The translations under genes were made by a program, and so were the position numbers. DNA of 64,000 bases from Pseudomonas sp. RIT288 (GTDB taxonomy: Bacteria > Pseudomonadota > Gammaproteobacteria > Pseudomonadales > Pseudomonadaceae). The notes beneath the pieces are model-generated. The model worked only from the letters and a program-made list of their open reading frames with translations. It did no database searches and was not told where the DNA came from. This document shows, piece after piece, positions 32,149 to 34,587 of this stretch (position 1 is the first letter of the stretch; each line of letters begins with the position of its first letter). Where the stretch lies: contig NZ_JFYN01000008.1 in the NCBI RefSeq assembly GCF_000631985.1, positions 62,001-126,000 on the forward strand. Reading direction: 5' to 3'.

Positions 32149-32906
32149 TGCCCCGCCGCCACGGGTACTACCCGCCCCTGCCATTTGCCGGCATCACGTC
32201 GCGCGACGACCAACAGTTCACCAGGGCTTGGCGCCGCGGCGACCAGCGTGCCATTTTCAGACCAGACTGCACTGCGACCCGCCGATTGCCATCCGCCCGT
32301 GAGTCCGGCGTGATTGGCCATCAGCACCGCCATTGAGTGGTTTTGGGCATAGCCCTGAAGTATCGCGCTATCCACGCCATAGCCTTTCTCGCCAATCAGC
32401 ACGCCTGCTGCGTACAGGTCGGCGCCAGCAACCGCGGCCGCTGCCGCGTGACTGGCGTGGGAAAAATCAGCGCAGACCGCCAGCGCGACGGTATCGCTGC
32501 CTATACACAGCGTCGAACCACCAGCCCCAGGGGCATAAAAGAGCTCTTCGCCACTGTGCAAATGTTGTTTGCTGTAAACCTTTAGAGAACCGTCCCTGCC
32601 TAACGTCAGCGCGCCGATCAATACCTGCGCGCTGTCCTCGTGGCGAATCGGCATGCCGACGACAGCGGTGAGGCCAAGCTCGCGAGCGCAATCGCGCAAG
32701 GGTTGCAGCACAGCATCCTGCGGATCGATTGCCAGGTCTGCGGCCATCTGGCCTTCGTAGCCTGTCAGGGACAACTCCGGGAACACCAGCAGCTCGACGC
32801 CCTGCTCCGCCGCCACGGCCATGAAGCGCAAATGACGGGTGATGTTCGCCGCCAGATCCCCGGCAACGGAAAACGATTGGGCTGCTGCGATGGTGAACGT
32901 CGACAT
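32145..32906 (-). CDS. Carbon-nitrogen hydrolase (nitrilase superfamily)
   Basis: 253 residues with the complete Glu-Lys-Cys triad: Glu44 (VFPELSLTGYE), Lys113 (VYSKQHLHSGEE) and Cys145 (AVCADFSH). Hydrolyses an amide or nitrile C-N bond; the substrate is not evident. Coupled to the GNAT gene by a 4-bp overlap. Its promoter lies in the 151 bp shared with the divergent DAHP synthase leader. Confidence 0.88.
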   Translation of the reverse strand: MSTFTIAAAQSFSVAGDLAANITRHLRFMAVAAEQGVELLVFPELSLTGYEGQMAADLAIDPQDAVLQPLRDCARELGLTAVVGMPIRHEDSAQVLIGALTLGRDGSLKVYSKQHLHSGEELFYAPGAGGSTLCIGSDTVALAVCADFSHASHAAAAAVAGADLYAAGVLIGEKGYGVDSAILQGYAQNHSMAVLMANHAGLTGGWQSAGRSAVWSENGTLVAAAPSPGELLVVARRDAGKWQGRVVPVAAGQ

Positions 32907-33057
32907 TATTCATCCTTGGGGTTGCGCAAAATCTCAGTGTGTCACAACGCCCGAGGCACTAGAACGATAGGTAACGCCTTGAATGAGCGATAGCAATTTC
33001 TGATTGCTCAGGCGTACGGGCCTCTAGTAAGCTCGGCGCATTCATCGGAGACAAACC

Positions 33058-33186
33058 ATGTTCAACGCCCTCTCACAGCTTCGTTCCGACAGCGCTCTGC
33101 GCTCGGTTGCGGCTGTCCGGGCGAATGACGTTTGCGCTCCAGCGAGCTTTTATTTTGGGTATTGGTTTAGCCACTGGCGCGCCTGA
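33058..33186 (+). CDS. Leader peptide A, aromatic-rich, upstream of DAHP synthase
   Basis: 42 codons, ATG with GGAG eight bases upstream, stop TGA at 33184. The last third reads SFYFGYWFSHWRA: seven Phe/Tyr/Trp in ten codons (33,148-33,180), just before a stop. The aromatic codons overlap a hairpin whose arms are 33,154-33,162 and 33,186-33,194 (9 bp, TTTGGGTAT with ATACCCAAA). A second hairpin at 33,196-33,218 and a strong terminator at 33,234 follow. This is the layout of ribosome-mediated attenuation for aromatic amino acids. Existence as a translated peptide is inferred. Confidence 0.75.
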   Translation: MFNALSQLRSDSALRSVAAVRANDVCAPASFYFGYWFSHWRA

Positions 33187-33233
33187 TACCCAAACGGCGC
33201 CCATGAAAACGGGTCGCCTACCAGAGAATTCTC

Positions 33234-33271
33234 AACCCCCGGTCGGCCTCCCGACCGGGGGTTTTGTTTTT
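33234..33271 (+). terminator. Attenuator terminator upstream of DAHP synthase
   Basis: Perfect 13-bp stem (33,234-33,246 with 33,251-33,263), CCTC loop, then TTGTTTTTT. It lies 48 bp past leader A and 252 bp before the DAHP synthase start, so transcription must pass it for expression. I did not find one obvious long anti-terminator; alternative pairings involve the GGCGC-rich segments at 33,175-33,218. Confidence 0.85.
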
Positions 33272-33322
33272 TCAGGCCCGAAATTTTTCAGCAACTCACC
33301 AGACACTTTGAGGAATCACCAC

Positions 33323-33475
33323 ATGAACTACGCCACTTATTACCGTTACGACACTTTTACCGCCTGGCGATTTAGCAGCCTCCGCTCGGGACAGCCTGCC
33401 GCCTCCGATCGGTCACCCATAGGTGGCAAGCACACACACGCAGCCAATACGGCCAATTGTCGAACACCCCAGTAG
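33323..33475 (+). CDS. Leader peptide B, aromatic-rich, between terminator and DAHP synthase
   Basis: 50 codons. ATG with GAGG nine bases upstream. The first 17 residues are MNYATYYRYDTFTAWRF: four Tyr, two Phe and one Trp. The rest (SSLRSGQPAASDRSPIG onward) is unremarkable. No second intrinsic terminator follows. The enrichment at the start, so close to leader A and the same gene, suggests a second control step (for example Rho access or translational coupling) rather than a structural protein. Confidence 0.55.
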   Translation: MNYATYYRYDTFTAWRFSSLRSGQPAASDRSPIGGKHTHAANTANCRTPQ

Positions 33476-33522
33476 GGCCGAGTGAGCGGGAAGCACCCGC
33501 CGCCAGCCCAGGAATCCCGAAT

Positions 33523-34587
33523 ATGAACTCGTCTGTTTCTGCTTTGCCACTGACCACCCTGAACTCTGCCAACGAAGCACTGACCCTGCGTCTGCCCAGC
33601 TCGTTGCAGCTCAAACAGCAATTGCCCCTGAGCAATGCCCTCGCCCAGCAAGTCGCAGCCCACCGCCAGGCGGTCCGCGCGATTCTCAATGGCGAAGACC
33701 ATCGCCTGCTGGTCGTCGTCGGCCCTTGCTCGATTCATGATCCGCGCTCCGCACTCGAATACGCCGAAAAACTTTCCCGCCTGGCCCATGAAGTCAGCGA
33801 CGAGATGCTGCTGGTGATGCGCGCCTACATCGAAAAACCACGCACCACCGTCGGCTGGAAAGGCCTGGCGTACGACCCGCACCTCGATGGCAGCGATGAC
33901 ATGGCCACCGGCCTGACCCTGTCGCGTGAATTGATGCTTGAGATGATCCGCCTGGGACTGCCCATCGCTACCGAACTGCTGCAACCAATGGCTGCCGGCT
34001 ACTTCGACGACCTGCTCAGCTGGGTTGCCATCGGTGCCCGCACCACCGAGTCACAGATCCATCGGGAAATGGCCAGCGGCCTGAGCATGCCCGTTGGCTT
34101 CAAGAATGGCACCGACGGTGGCGTAACCGTGGCTGTCGATGCCATGCGTTCGGCAGCCCACCCGCATCGACACTTCGGCGTCGACAGCCAAGGGCACCCG
34201 GCGATCATTCAGACACCGGGCAACCCCGACACTCACCTGGTACTGCGCGGCGGTCATCAAGGCCCGAACTACGATCGCGAAAGCGTCGCCCGGATACATG
34301 CCGACCTTAACCGCCTGAAGATTCCGAGCCGCATCATGGTCGACTGCAGCCACGCGAACAGCGGCAAGGATCCACTGCGCCAGCCTGATGTGTTCAACGA
34401 GGTACTCGAACAACGCCTGCAAGGTGATCGCGCCTTGATCGGCATGATGATTGAATCCCATCTGTTCGAGGGCTGTCAGCCTTTGAGCCCTGCCCTGCGC
34501 TATGGCGTATCGGTCACCGATGGTTGCCTGGGGTTCAGCGCAACGGAGCAGTTGTTGTCGAACGCAGCCATACGGCTTAGAACCTGA
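33523..34587 (+). CDS. 3-deoxy-7-phosphoheptulonate (DAHP) synthase, class I
   Basis: 354 residues from the ATG at 33523. Condenses phosphoenolpyruvate and erythrose-4-phosphate, first step of the shikimate pathway to Phe, Tyr and Trp. AroFGH-type marks: VVVGPCSIHDPRSALEYA near residue 66, MRAYIEKPRTTVGWKGL near 103, GFKNGTDGG near 193, RGGHQGPNY near 243 and VDCSHANSGKDP near 275. Whether it is the Tyr-, Phe- or Trp-sensitive isozyme cannot be read here; the leader suggests control by aromatic amino-acid supply. Transcribed alone behind the leader. Confidence 0.93.
   Translation: MNSSVSALPLTTLNSANEALTLRLPSSLQLKQQLPLSNALAQQVAAHRQAVRAILNGEDHRLLVVVGPCSIHDPRSALEYAEKLSRLAHEVSDEMLLVMRAYIEKPRTTVGWKGLAYDPHLDGSDDMATGLTLSRELMLEMIRLGLPIATELLQPMAAGYFDDLLSWVAIGARTTESQIHREMASGLSMPVGFKNGTDGGVTVAVDAMRSAAHPHRHFGVDSQGHPAIIQTPGNPDTHLVLRGGHQGPNYDRESVARIHADLNRLKIPSRIMVDCSHANSGKDPLRQPDVFNEVLEQRLQGDRALIGMMIESHLFEGCQPLSPALRYGVSVTDGCLGFSATEQLLSNAAIRLRT

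Follow-up and report, generated by a model that had tools for sequence, protein, structure and literature searches.

The trp and phe attenuators (trpL, pheL) operate through alternative hairpins and an intrinsic terminator. In enterobacteria, the trp, phe and pheST attenuators place a leader peptide with codons for the sensed amino acid before the biosynthetic or synthetase gene, as described in the passages that PMC11802643 devotes to them. A leader peptide before a DAHP synthase gene is on record for Corynebacterium glutamicum, where aroR, with Phe-Tyr-Phe, precedes aroF and is reported to respond to Phe and not to Tyr, according to the short accounts of it in PMC11802643 and PMC4046766 (citing Neshat et al. 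2014). In Bacillus subtilis, the leader peptide of rtpLP-rtpA (anti-TRAP) carries three Trp codons, and in the section of PMC2311275 that treats it, its complete translation prevents the translation of RtpA. These two, aroR and rtpA, are the nearest analogues of a leader of Pseudomonas that we describe below. No description of two serial leader peptides that flank a terminator and cover all three aromatic amino acids was found among the matches listed from the open-access literature.

The leader in question lies on the plus strand of the window, by which we mean the whole stretch of 64,000 nucleotides of Pseudomonas sp. RIT288 that was analysed, and its parts follow one another in the order ORF1, attenuator ending in a terminator, ORF2 and DAHP synthase gene. 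The original prediction had placed here a 42-codon frame with a good ribosome site, a 9-bp hairpin over its aromatic codons, a second hairpin followed by a 13-bp terminator with a T-run, and a second frame with a ribosome site of its own before the DAHP synthase gene, and all of these were recovered, as given below.

33001 to 33033, plus strand: possible promoter (TGATTG, 18 nt, TAGTAA), a weak match in a block kept in 58 close relatives
33058 to 33186, plus strand: ORF1, a 42-codon leader peptide with GGAGA ahead of it, ending in SFYFGYWFSHWRA; found in 109/109 Pseudomonas loci and 75/75 further loci
33144 to 33261, plus strand: match to Rfam RF00627 (P15), which is the attenuator; 134.2 bits, gathering threshold 70
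33157 to 33191, plus strand: segments A (33157-33162) and B (33186-33191), with A2 (33176-33183) in the loop; A:B predicted in 152/169 loci
33196 to 33218, plus strand: second hairpin, formed by segments C (33196-33202) and D (33211-33218); C:D predicted in 163/169 loci
33234 to 33263, plus strand: intrinsic terminator of 13 bp (10 G-C pairs) with a 4-nt loop and a T-run after it
33323 to 33475, plus strand: ORF2, a 50-codon second leader peptide, MNYATYYRYDTFTAWRF...CRTPQ, with the SD TGAGGA at 33309; identified by recurrence and frame tests
33509 to 33514, plus strand: SD of the DAHP synthase gene, CAGGAA
33523 to 34587, plus strand: DAHP synthase (3-deoxy-7-phosphoheptulonate synthase) of type I, AroFGH family, 354 aa, with its ATG at 33523; TIGR00034 450 bits, NF009395 524 bits

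Like the trp, phe and pheST leaders, as these are portrayed in the passages cited above, the Pseudomonas leader has codons of the sensed amino acids in a peptide ahead of the gene. Unlike the trp and phe attenuators, which have one leader peptide, it has a second one after the terminator; it also differs from them in its mixed Phe, Tyr and Trp codons and in setting A:B, C:D and the terminator against A2:C and the pairing of D with the terminator 5' arm (T5). The likeness to aroR, by the brief descriptions of it, lies in a leader peptide ahead of a DAHP synthase, whereas aroR is described there as a single leader, is actinobacterial and shows a response to Phe but not to Tyr. The rtpA system, as far as the cited section goes, resembles the proposed scheme in that tRNA charging is read twice in succession on one mRNA, in transcription first and then through a leader peptide, and differs in that its first stage is a T-box and not a peptide and in that Trp alone is read.

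The best solved relatives of the DAHP synthase of the window are Tyr-sensitive DAHP synthases. We take PA1750 of P. aeruginosa, a shikimate-pathway protein, to be its probable counterpart. PA1750 is named among the proteins recovered with the PrrF1 sRNA as bait in the portion of PMC4263517 concerned with them. Upstream of ORF1, the conserved block at 33001-33033 contains ATTTCTGATTG and AGTAAGCTC, which fit the sigma-70 consensus poorly, and a sigma-70 scan matched no site at 33001..33033; judged by its conservation, the block is possibly the promoter of the leader.

In the mechanism that we propose, ORF1 would be translated while RNA polymerase makes the leader. If Phe-, Tyr- and Trp-tRNA are all charged, the ribosome would clear FYFGYWF, A:B and C:D would form, and the terminator would end transcription, the short RNA being P15. 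Were any of these tRNAs uncharged, the ORF1 ribosome would stall and cover A, so that A2 would pair with C, D would be left free for the terminator 5' arm, and transcription would read through. The codons of ORF1 agree with such a role. Its core is mostly (F/Y)(F/Y)(F/Y)GYWF in the 109 Pseudomonas loci, the TAT and TGG of GYW are fixed in every one of them, and the conserved Phe, Tyr and Trp codons fit the sensing of all three aromatic amino acids. A further Trp, three codons past the last Phe, is kept in 75 of these loci, is Arg in 17 and lies beyond the stop in 17; GYWF is thus retained though the later Trp is Arg or missing in 34/109 loci, as it should be if a stall counted only when A2 stays available. 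When waiting at G-Y-W, the ribosome would leave A2 free for C, one at the later Trp would cover A2, and this geometry would explain why the later Trp is not conserved.

The 9 Watson-Crick pairs of the first helix, UUUGGGUAU:AUACCCAAA (with one U-G in addition), span the Gly-Tyr codons of ORF1, and the fold of 33138-33275 is more stable than expected from its composition (z = -6.2; 0/200 shuffles equally stable). The antiterminator consists of A2:C and D:T5 and is the alternative to A:B, C:D and the terminator. RNAalifold, when run on whole MAFFT alignments, did not recover the upstream (attenuator) hairpins, and its folds of region 2 disagreed between two groups; helices were therefore counted per sequence, without a covariation statistic, in the 169 of 184 loci whose terminator was locatable by a strict rule, the other 15 being without a locatable attenuator. 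When A was taken out and the sequence stopped short of the terminator 3' arm, per-sequence folding gave A2:C in 167/169 and D:T5 in 169/169 loci, the D:T5 count being one of capacity only, as it was scored with the 3' arm removed and A masked. Of 175 loci subjected to a partition-function estimate, 133 showed more and 13 less antiterminator pairing with a ribosome on the Tyr codon (thinned set of 41 loci: 25 and 7), with a small mean shift (0.23 to 0.35; thinned, 0.28 to 0.36). Letters have changed on both strands with retention of pairing in two individual loci, L101 (C:D and D:T5) and L167 (A2:C). A frame with codons of the pathway thus stands before the gene and an intrinsic terminator between leader and gene, as in an attenuator, and the mutually exclusive fold that would free the terminator arm on stalling is present by prediction only. 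Attenuation via ORF1 is strongly supported by the conserved codons and the two competing predicted folds, and the region very likely acts as a ribosome-mediated transcription attenuator that works as outlined above.

P15 was reportedly first described by Livny et al. in 2006. The record of RF00627 in Rfam labels it as a Pseudomonas sRNA gene, and a riboswitch role was proposed for it in the part of the SIPHT paper that mentions it (PMC2527527). The two-leader series was not found described among the matches listed from the open-access literature, whereas the ORF1 attenuator is not wholly new, being the catalogued sRNA P15, for which the reading as an attenuator is given here and which in this way gains a likely function. 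ORF2 and the RNA features associated with it, viz., a pseudoknot-like fold and a hairpin H, fall outside the Rfam match. P15 is present in 109/119 sampled Pseudomonas genomes, in 157/198 genomes of the family sample and in 10/145 genomes of the order sample, and the orthologous DAHP synthase gene lies downstream of it in 109/109 Pseudomonas loci. Comparisons beyond these used 75 further loci from other genera, some of other families (from the family-level hits, 28 new ones as listed and 40 picked for genus spread; from the order level, 7), and a set of loci from named genomes.

An ORF2-type frame, with Tyr-rich codons and W-R-F, follows the terminator in 109/109 Pseudomonas loci. Both aromatic frames, ORF1 and ORF2, are present in every one of these loci, which is more than chance. 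The ORF2 stop is TAG in 107/109 of these loci. ORF2 recurs in 69/75 further loci and in 57/60 gene-holding loci from named genomes, the latter among the matches listed (80 of at least 119 stretches); another 20 of these 80 listed stretches have no gene downstream, 17 of them being apparently chance 16-mer matches and 3 true leaders cut by the end of the locus. Carriers among the named genomes include Stutzerimonas, Halopseudomonas, Denitrificimonas and Halotalea alkalilenta (Halomonadaceae). A pattern search for the long form of ORF2 found it in 12/293 genomes of the order, which belong to the families f1 and f36. Since Halotalea shares the long form of f36, we suspect that f36 is or includes Halomonadaceae. 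In seven loci of f36 the succession ORF1, ORF2, gene is retained although the letters are rewritten; for example, the ORF2 of L317 contains the Tyr run YGYGYGYG, YGYGYGYGWRFS. That ORF2 recurs in several genera and in a further family supports the proposal of a second aromatic leader beyond the terminator. Outside the order, the pseudoknot pattern was found in the window's own genome alone among 274 genomes of the class sample.

In most relatives, the gene is not kept without the two frames, and the exceptions concern ORF2. L190 and L192 (of the 75) and L259 (of the 60) retain ORF1 and the gene and have no recognisable ORF2. The other misses among the 75 are altered forms: L148 and L154 carry one-letter variants of the motif described below, and L151 and L156 have an aromatic frame without W-R-F. 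Among the 60 loci from named genomes, W-R-F is written with another Arg codon in L260, and L248 (Alcanivorax sp. DP30) has at the position of ORF2 a frame, MYRYQPTTLQLKGLWPQILLTLRR, with few aromatic codons and without the motif, which looks like a decayed or diverged ORF2. Two loci of Pseudomonas stand out in length. In L053, alone of the 109, ORF2 is not closed at the usual place and extends into the region of the gene, apparently through a small indel near its end, and this locus was excluded from the ORF2 codon alignment, which consequently has n = 108. L106 has about 138 nt more between terminator and ORF2 than its close relatives, with ORF1 and ORF2 intact.

The frame tests of ORF2 used 46 representatives, thinned by similarity from the 173/184 loci that hold GCGATTTA and hence conditioned on the presence of ORF2. 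Ahead of the ORF2 Trp, 184/606 codons are aromatic in frame (30%), against 3/560 and 17/560 in the other frames (0.5% and 3%) and 38 +/- 5.5 expected from shuffled letters. Stops fall within the ORF2 span in 0, 45 and 38 of the 46 representatives for the three frames, and an SD-like stretch precedes the start in 148/173 loci (35/46 thinned). The largest length class has 71 distinct sequences; in it, pN/pS before WRF is 0.45 in frame and 1.19 and 0.76 in the other frames, and after WRF it is 0.83 in frame and 1.21 and 0.76 in the others; the smaller length classes (5 to 11 sequences) give mixed values, some of them 1 or more in frame. Purifying selection in the largest class is thus limited to the aromatic half, which argues for a sensor rather than a working protein, and a functional small protein is disfavoured as there is no in-frame signal of selection after WRF in that class. 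On the whole, the pattern resembles that of a leader peptide in which the sensor codons matter and the remainder does not, and from these codon statistics we consider ORF2 quite probably a translated regulatory leader.

ORF2 and the letters that follow it contain three RNA features.

33365 to 33376, plus strand: near-invariant motif TGGCGATTTAGC, with Trp-Arg-Phe-Ser codons; TGG CGA TTT fixed in 108/108 aligned Pseudomonas sequences
33382 to 33427, plus strand: pseudoknot-like fold within ORF2, made of M1 (33382-33389:33405-33412) and M2 (33398-33403:33422-33427)
33475 to 33509, plus strand: hairpin H, which bridges the ORF2 stop and the gene SD; 166/170 loci tested

The TGG CGA TTT codons of the motif are fixed at their silent positions too in the 108 aligned Pseudomonas sequences. 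Its invariance rests on this alignment and the 75 further loci, and not on the 46 motif-selected representatives; in the 75, the pattern TGGCG.TT[TC] is missing in 7, CGC replaces CGA in 2 and several vary at later letters. In L148, GCGATTTAGC persists although the Trp codon is lost. The window's own genome contains TGGCGATTTANC four times, the other three copies having T at the open base. No accepted pairing partner for the near-invariant TGGCGATTTA emerged from a partner scan in the 46 representatives and a gene-start test. The unbiased scan ranked segment D (GGCG vs CGCC) at the top, followed by other G+C-rich segments, and gave no consistent partner for the GATTTA of the motif in these representatives; a weak pairing of the motif with letters near the ORF2 stop is seen in 54/109 loci. 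A motif with nearly fixed silent positions across two families and no partner found is a concrete puzzle.

Downstream of the motif, the pseudoknot-like block of 46 nt (H-type, two interleaved helices) occurs in ungapped register in 151/237 motif loci; named and unnamed copies overlap in this set and not all are independent, so that the usable count is one of 77 distinct sequences. M2 pairs 6/6 in 77/77 of these and M1 at least 7/8 in 73, with one M1 column mismatched in 65/77. The M1 pairing of 0.886 exceeds all 500 between-species re-pairings (maximum 0.875), a result that related sequences can give without structure, and M1 slid by -1 pairs 0.677 vs 0.877. The support for M2 is weakened as its letters repeat, and it pairs almost as well when its partner is slid by 3 columns (0.991 vs 0.998 over the columns still in range). 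The pair 17:47 is seen as C-G, U-A, G-C and G-U, and in L194, which is outside the pseudoknot set and has no M2, the M1 letters differ yet pair 8/8. The short-ORF2 class is without the block. When pseudoknots were disallowed, the ORF2 region of the window folded no better than shuffles (z +0.49, -0.38, -0.96). A ribosome's footprint extends about 16 nt ahead of its P site, and one with the ORF2 Trp codon in the P site would therefore have its leading edge just at the first base of the pseudoknot, a spacing suggestive of a tuned roadblock. A scan of 33322-33522 against Rfam matched no family at E up to 5, riboswitches and T-boxes included, so that a described riboswitch or T-box does not account for the ORF2 region.

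Hairpin H is a single hairpin with 8 bp or more that abuts the ORF2 stop and the gene SD in 166/170 loci tested, and its median z against letter shuffles is -2.9 in 44 representatives. Between the ORF2 stop and the gene start there are 35-50 nt in 168/173 loci, a gap that H bridges, which distinguishes ORF2 in layout from rtpLP. As in rtpLP, an aromatic-rich frame stands before the gene with no terminator between the two; the three terminator-like sites in 32500-34000 are all at 33130-33263, upstream of ORF2.

In the second stage that we propose, the ORF2 ribosome would meet, on read-through transcripts, the second Tyr-rich run and Trp-Arg-Phe. If it stalled there, the region down to the gene would be free of ribosomes, H would be folded, and the gene SD and start would be cheaper to open, while a ribosome that reached the ORF2 stop would invade H and make the gene start costlier to open. 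Full expression of DAHP synthase would then follow only when aromatic shortage is read twice, and serial peptide sensors, if true, would allow a false alarm at the first check to be corrected at the second. In 43 representatives, opening SD and start is predicted to cost 5.33 kcal/mol without a ribosome. A ribosome on W-R-F lowers this predicted cost to 4.37 (by 0.96 kcal/mol, p = 0.014), and its move from there to the ORF2 stop raises it to 5.50 (by 1.13 kcal/mol, p = 8e-6). The order of these costs, lower for the WRF stall than for the stop, is that of rtpA as the cited section describes it, with a small effect of only about 1 kcal/mol, and the pairing of the gene SD is unchanged on stalling. 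In translational attenuators of the ermC type, the gene SD is paired upstream unless a ribosome stalls on the leader. Sequestration of this kind was rejected for ORF2: a ribosome on WRF leaves the unpaired probability of the gene SD nearly as it was (0.42, against 0.44 in its absence), and in 173 loci the duplex energy of the motif with the gene start ranks no better than its energy with 30-nt windows taken from the gene (median percentile 0.62). That ribosomes stall, that transcription terminates, and in which direction each step acts are inferences from these patterns and predictions. That the ORF1 attenuator is joined by ORF2 as a second regulatory leader, whatever the mechanism and sign of its stage, is probable in our estimate; that the second stage acts at translation, with stalling as the on state, is a tentative reading of the opening energies.

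A translation-level check in which stalling opens the gene is the favoured reading of the second stage, and Rho-dependent control comes next. ORF2 would in the latter case govern Rho-dependent termination, the stretch from WRF to the ORF2 stop would be a rut-like site, and the position of the ribosome would decide. What keeps this rival alive is the composition of the stretch after the motif, rich in C and poor in G: the long class has C 0.37 and G 0.17 after the pseudoknot and the short class C 0.43 and G 0.20, against C 0.36 and G 0.31 in CDS. By C-minus-G richness, the stretch ranks within the top 10% of CDS windows in 24/46 representatives but outside it in the other 22. A stall at WRF would bare the stretch and so, on starvation, lower expression, unless translation as a rule runs ahead of release; we consider this control unlikely. 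Reinitiation from the ORF2 stop, by which ORF2 would supply ribosomes to the gene and H would bring stop and SD close, would profit from the 35-50 nt gap (168/173) and from H filling the space between stop and SD (166/170), but aromatic shortage would then reduce enzyme synthesis, which is the wrong sign, and the DAHP synthase gene has its own SD, so that we find it quite improbable.

ORF2 could also be a by-product, conserved through its RNA elements (the motif, the pseudoknot and hairpin H), with ORF1 alone regulating. This would agree with the second half of ORF2, which has no frame signal (0.83 vs 0.76 in another frame), and with the survival of GCGATTTAGC in L148 after loss of the Trp codon. 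The in-frame excess of aromatic codons (184/606 vs 3/560 and 17/560), the lack of in-frame stops, the sign of selection that the largest class shows on its aromatic half, and the Tyr-rich runs that ORF2 of f36 has in other letters speak against it, and we doubt it strongly. That P15 is chiefly a trans-acting small RNA, its location before the gene being incidental, is very unlikely: Rfam catalogues it as an sRNA gene, but the gene is downstream in 109/109 loci, and P15 includes the end of a leader frame as well as a terminator, the 5' arm of which takes part in the competing fold. The terminated P15 RNA could act in trans as well. Programmed frameshifting at the motif before the pseudoknot, which would make the ORF2 region an N-terminal extension of the enzyme, would explain the fixed motif-pseudoknot distance, as found at frameshift sites, but is refuted as a conserved function, since the register is not conserved (the gene frame relative to ORF2 is 0, 1 and 2 in 35, 28 and 46 of 109 loci) and many loci have stops in between.

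Returning to the two-stage reading, ORF2 with TGGCGATTTA, a pseudoknot at fixed distance and a hairpin from its stop to the gene SD may form an undescribed leader-peptide RNA device, a serial double check in which ORF2 would read aromatic tRNA charging once the first leader peptide has let transcription pass, and old enough to be common to Pseudomonadaceae and a second family, that of Halotalea (Halomonadaceae); we put this forward as a possibility, a little short of an even balance. The analysis points to a probable control of the entry enzyme of aromatic biosynthesis in a genus important in biotechnology, medicine and agriculture.

The 10 Pseudomonas genomes without P15 have only a paralogue of the DAHP synthase, 53-54% identical to it (L110-L119, excluded from every leader count). 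In the 400 nt before the paralogue, the most aromatic frame has 2-4 aromatic codons per 12 and is species-specific, against 5-7 per 12 in ten true leaders measured alike. Since these genomes hold only the paralogue and no true leader, the leader and the gene go together in this sample, in presence as in absence. The window's own genome has a copy of the paralogue as well, at G000:C14:10548-11588. Before the paralogous gene of L110-L119 lies a conserved block of about 110 nt, which ends near GGCGGCCGGCACCCGTGACCTGA, contains no conserved aromatic run and is possibly another leader element.
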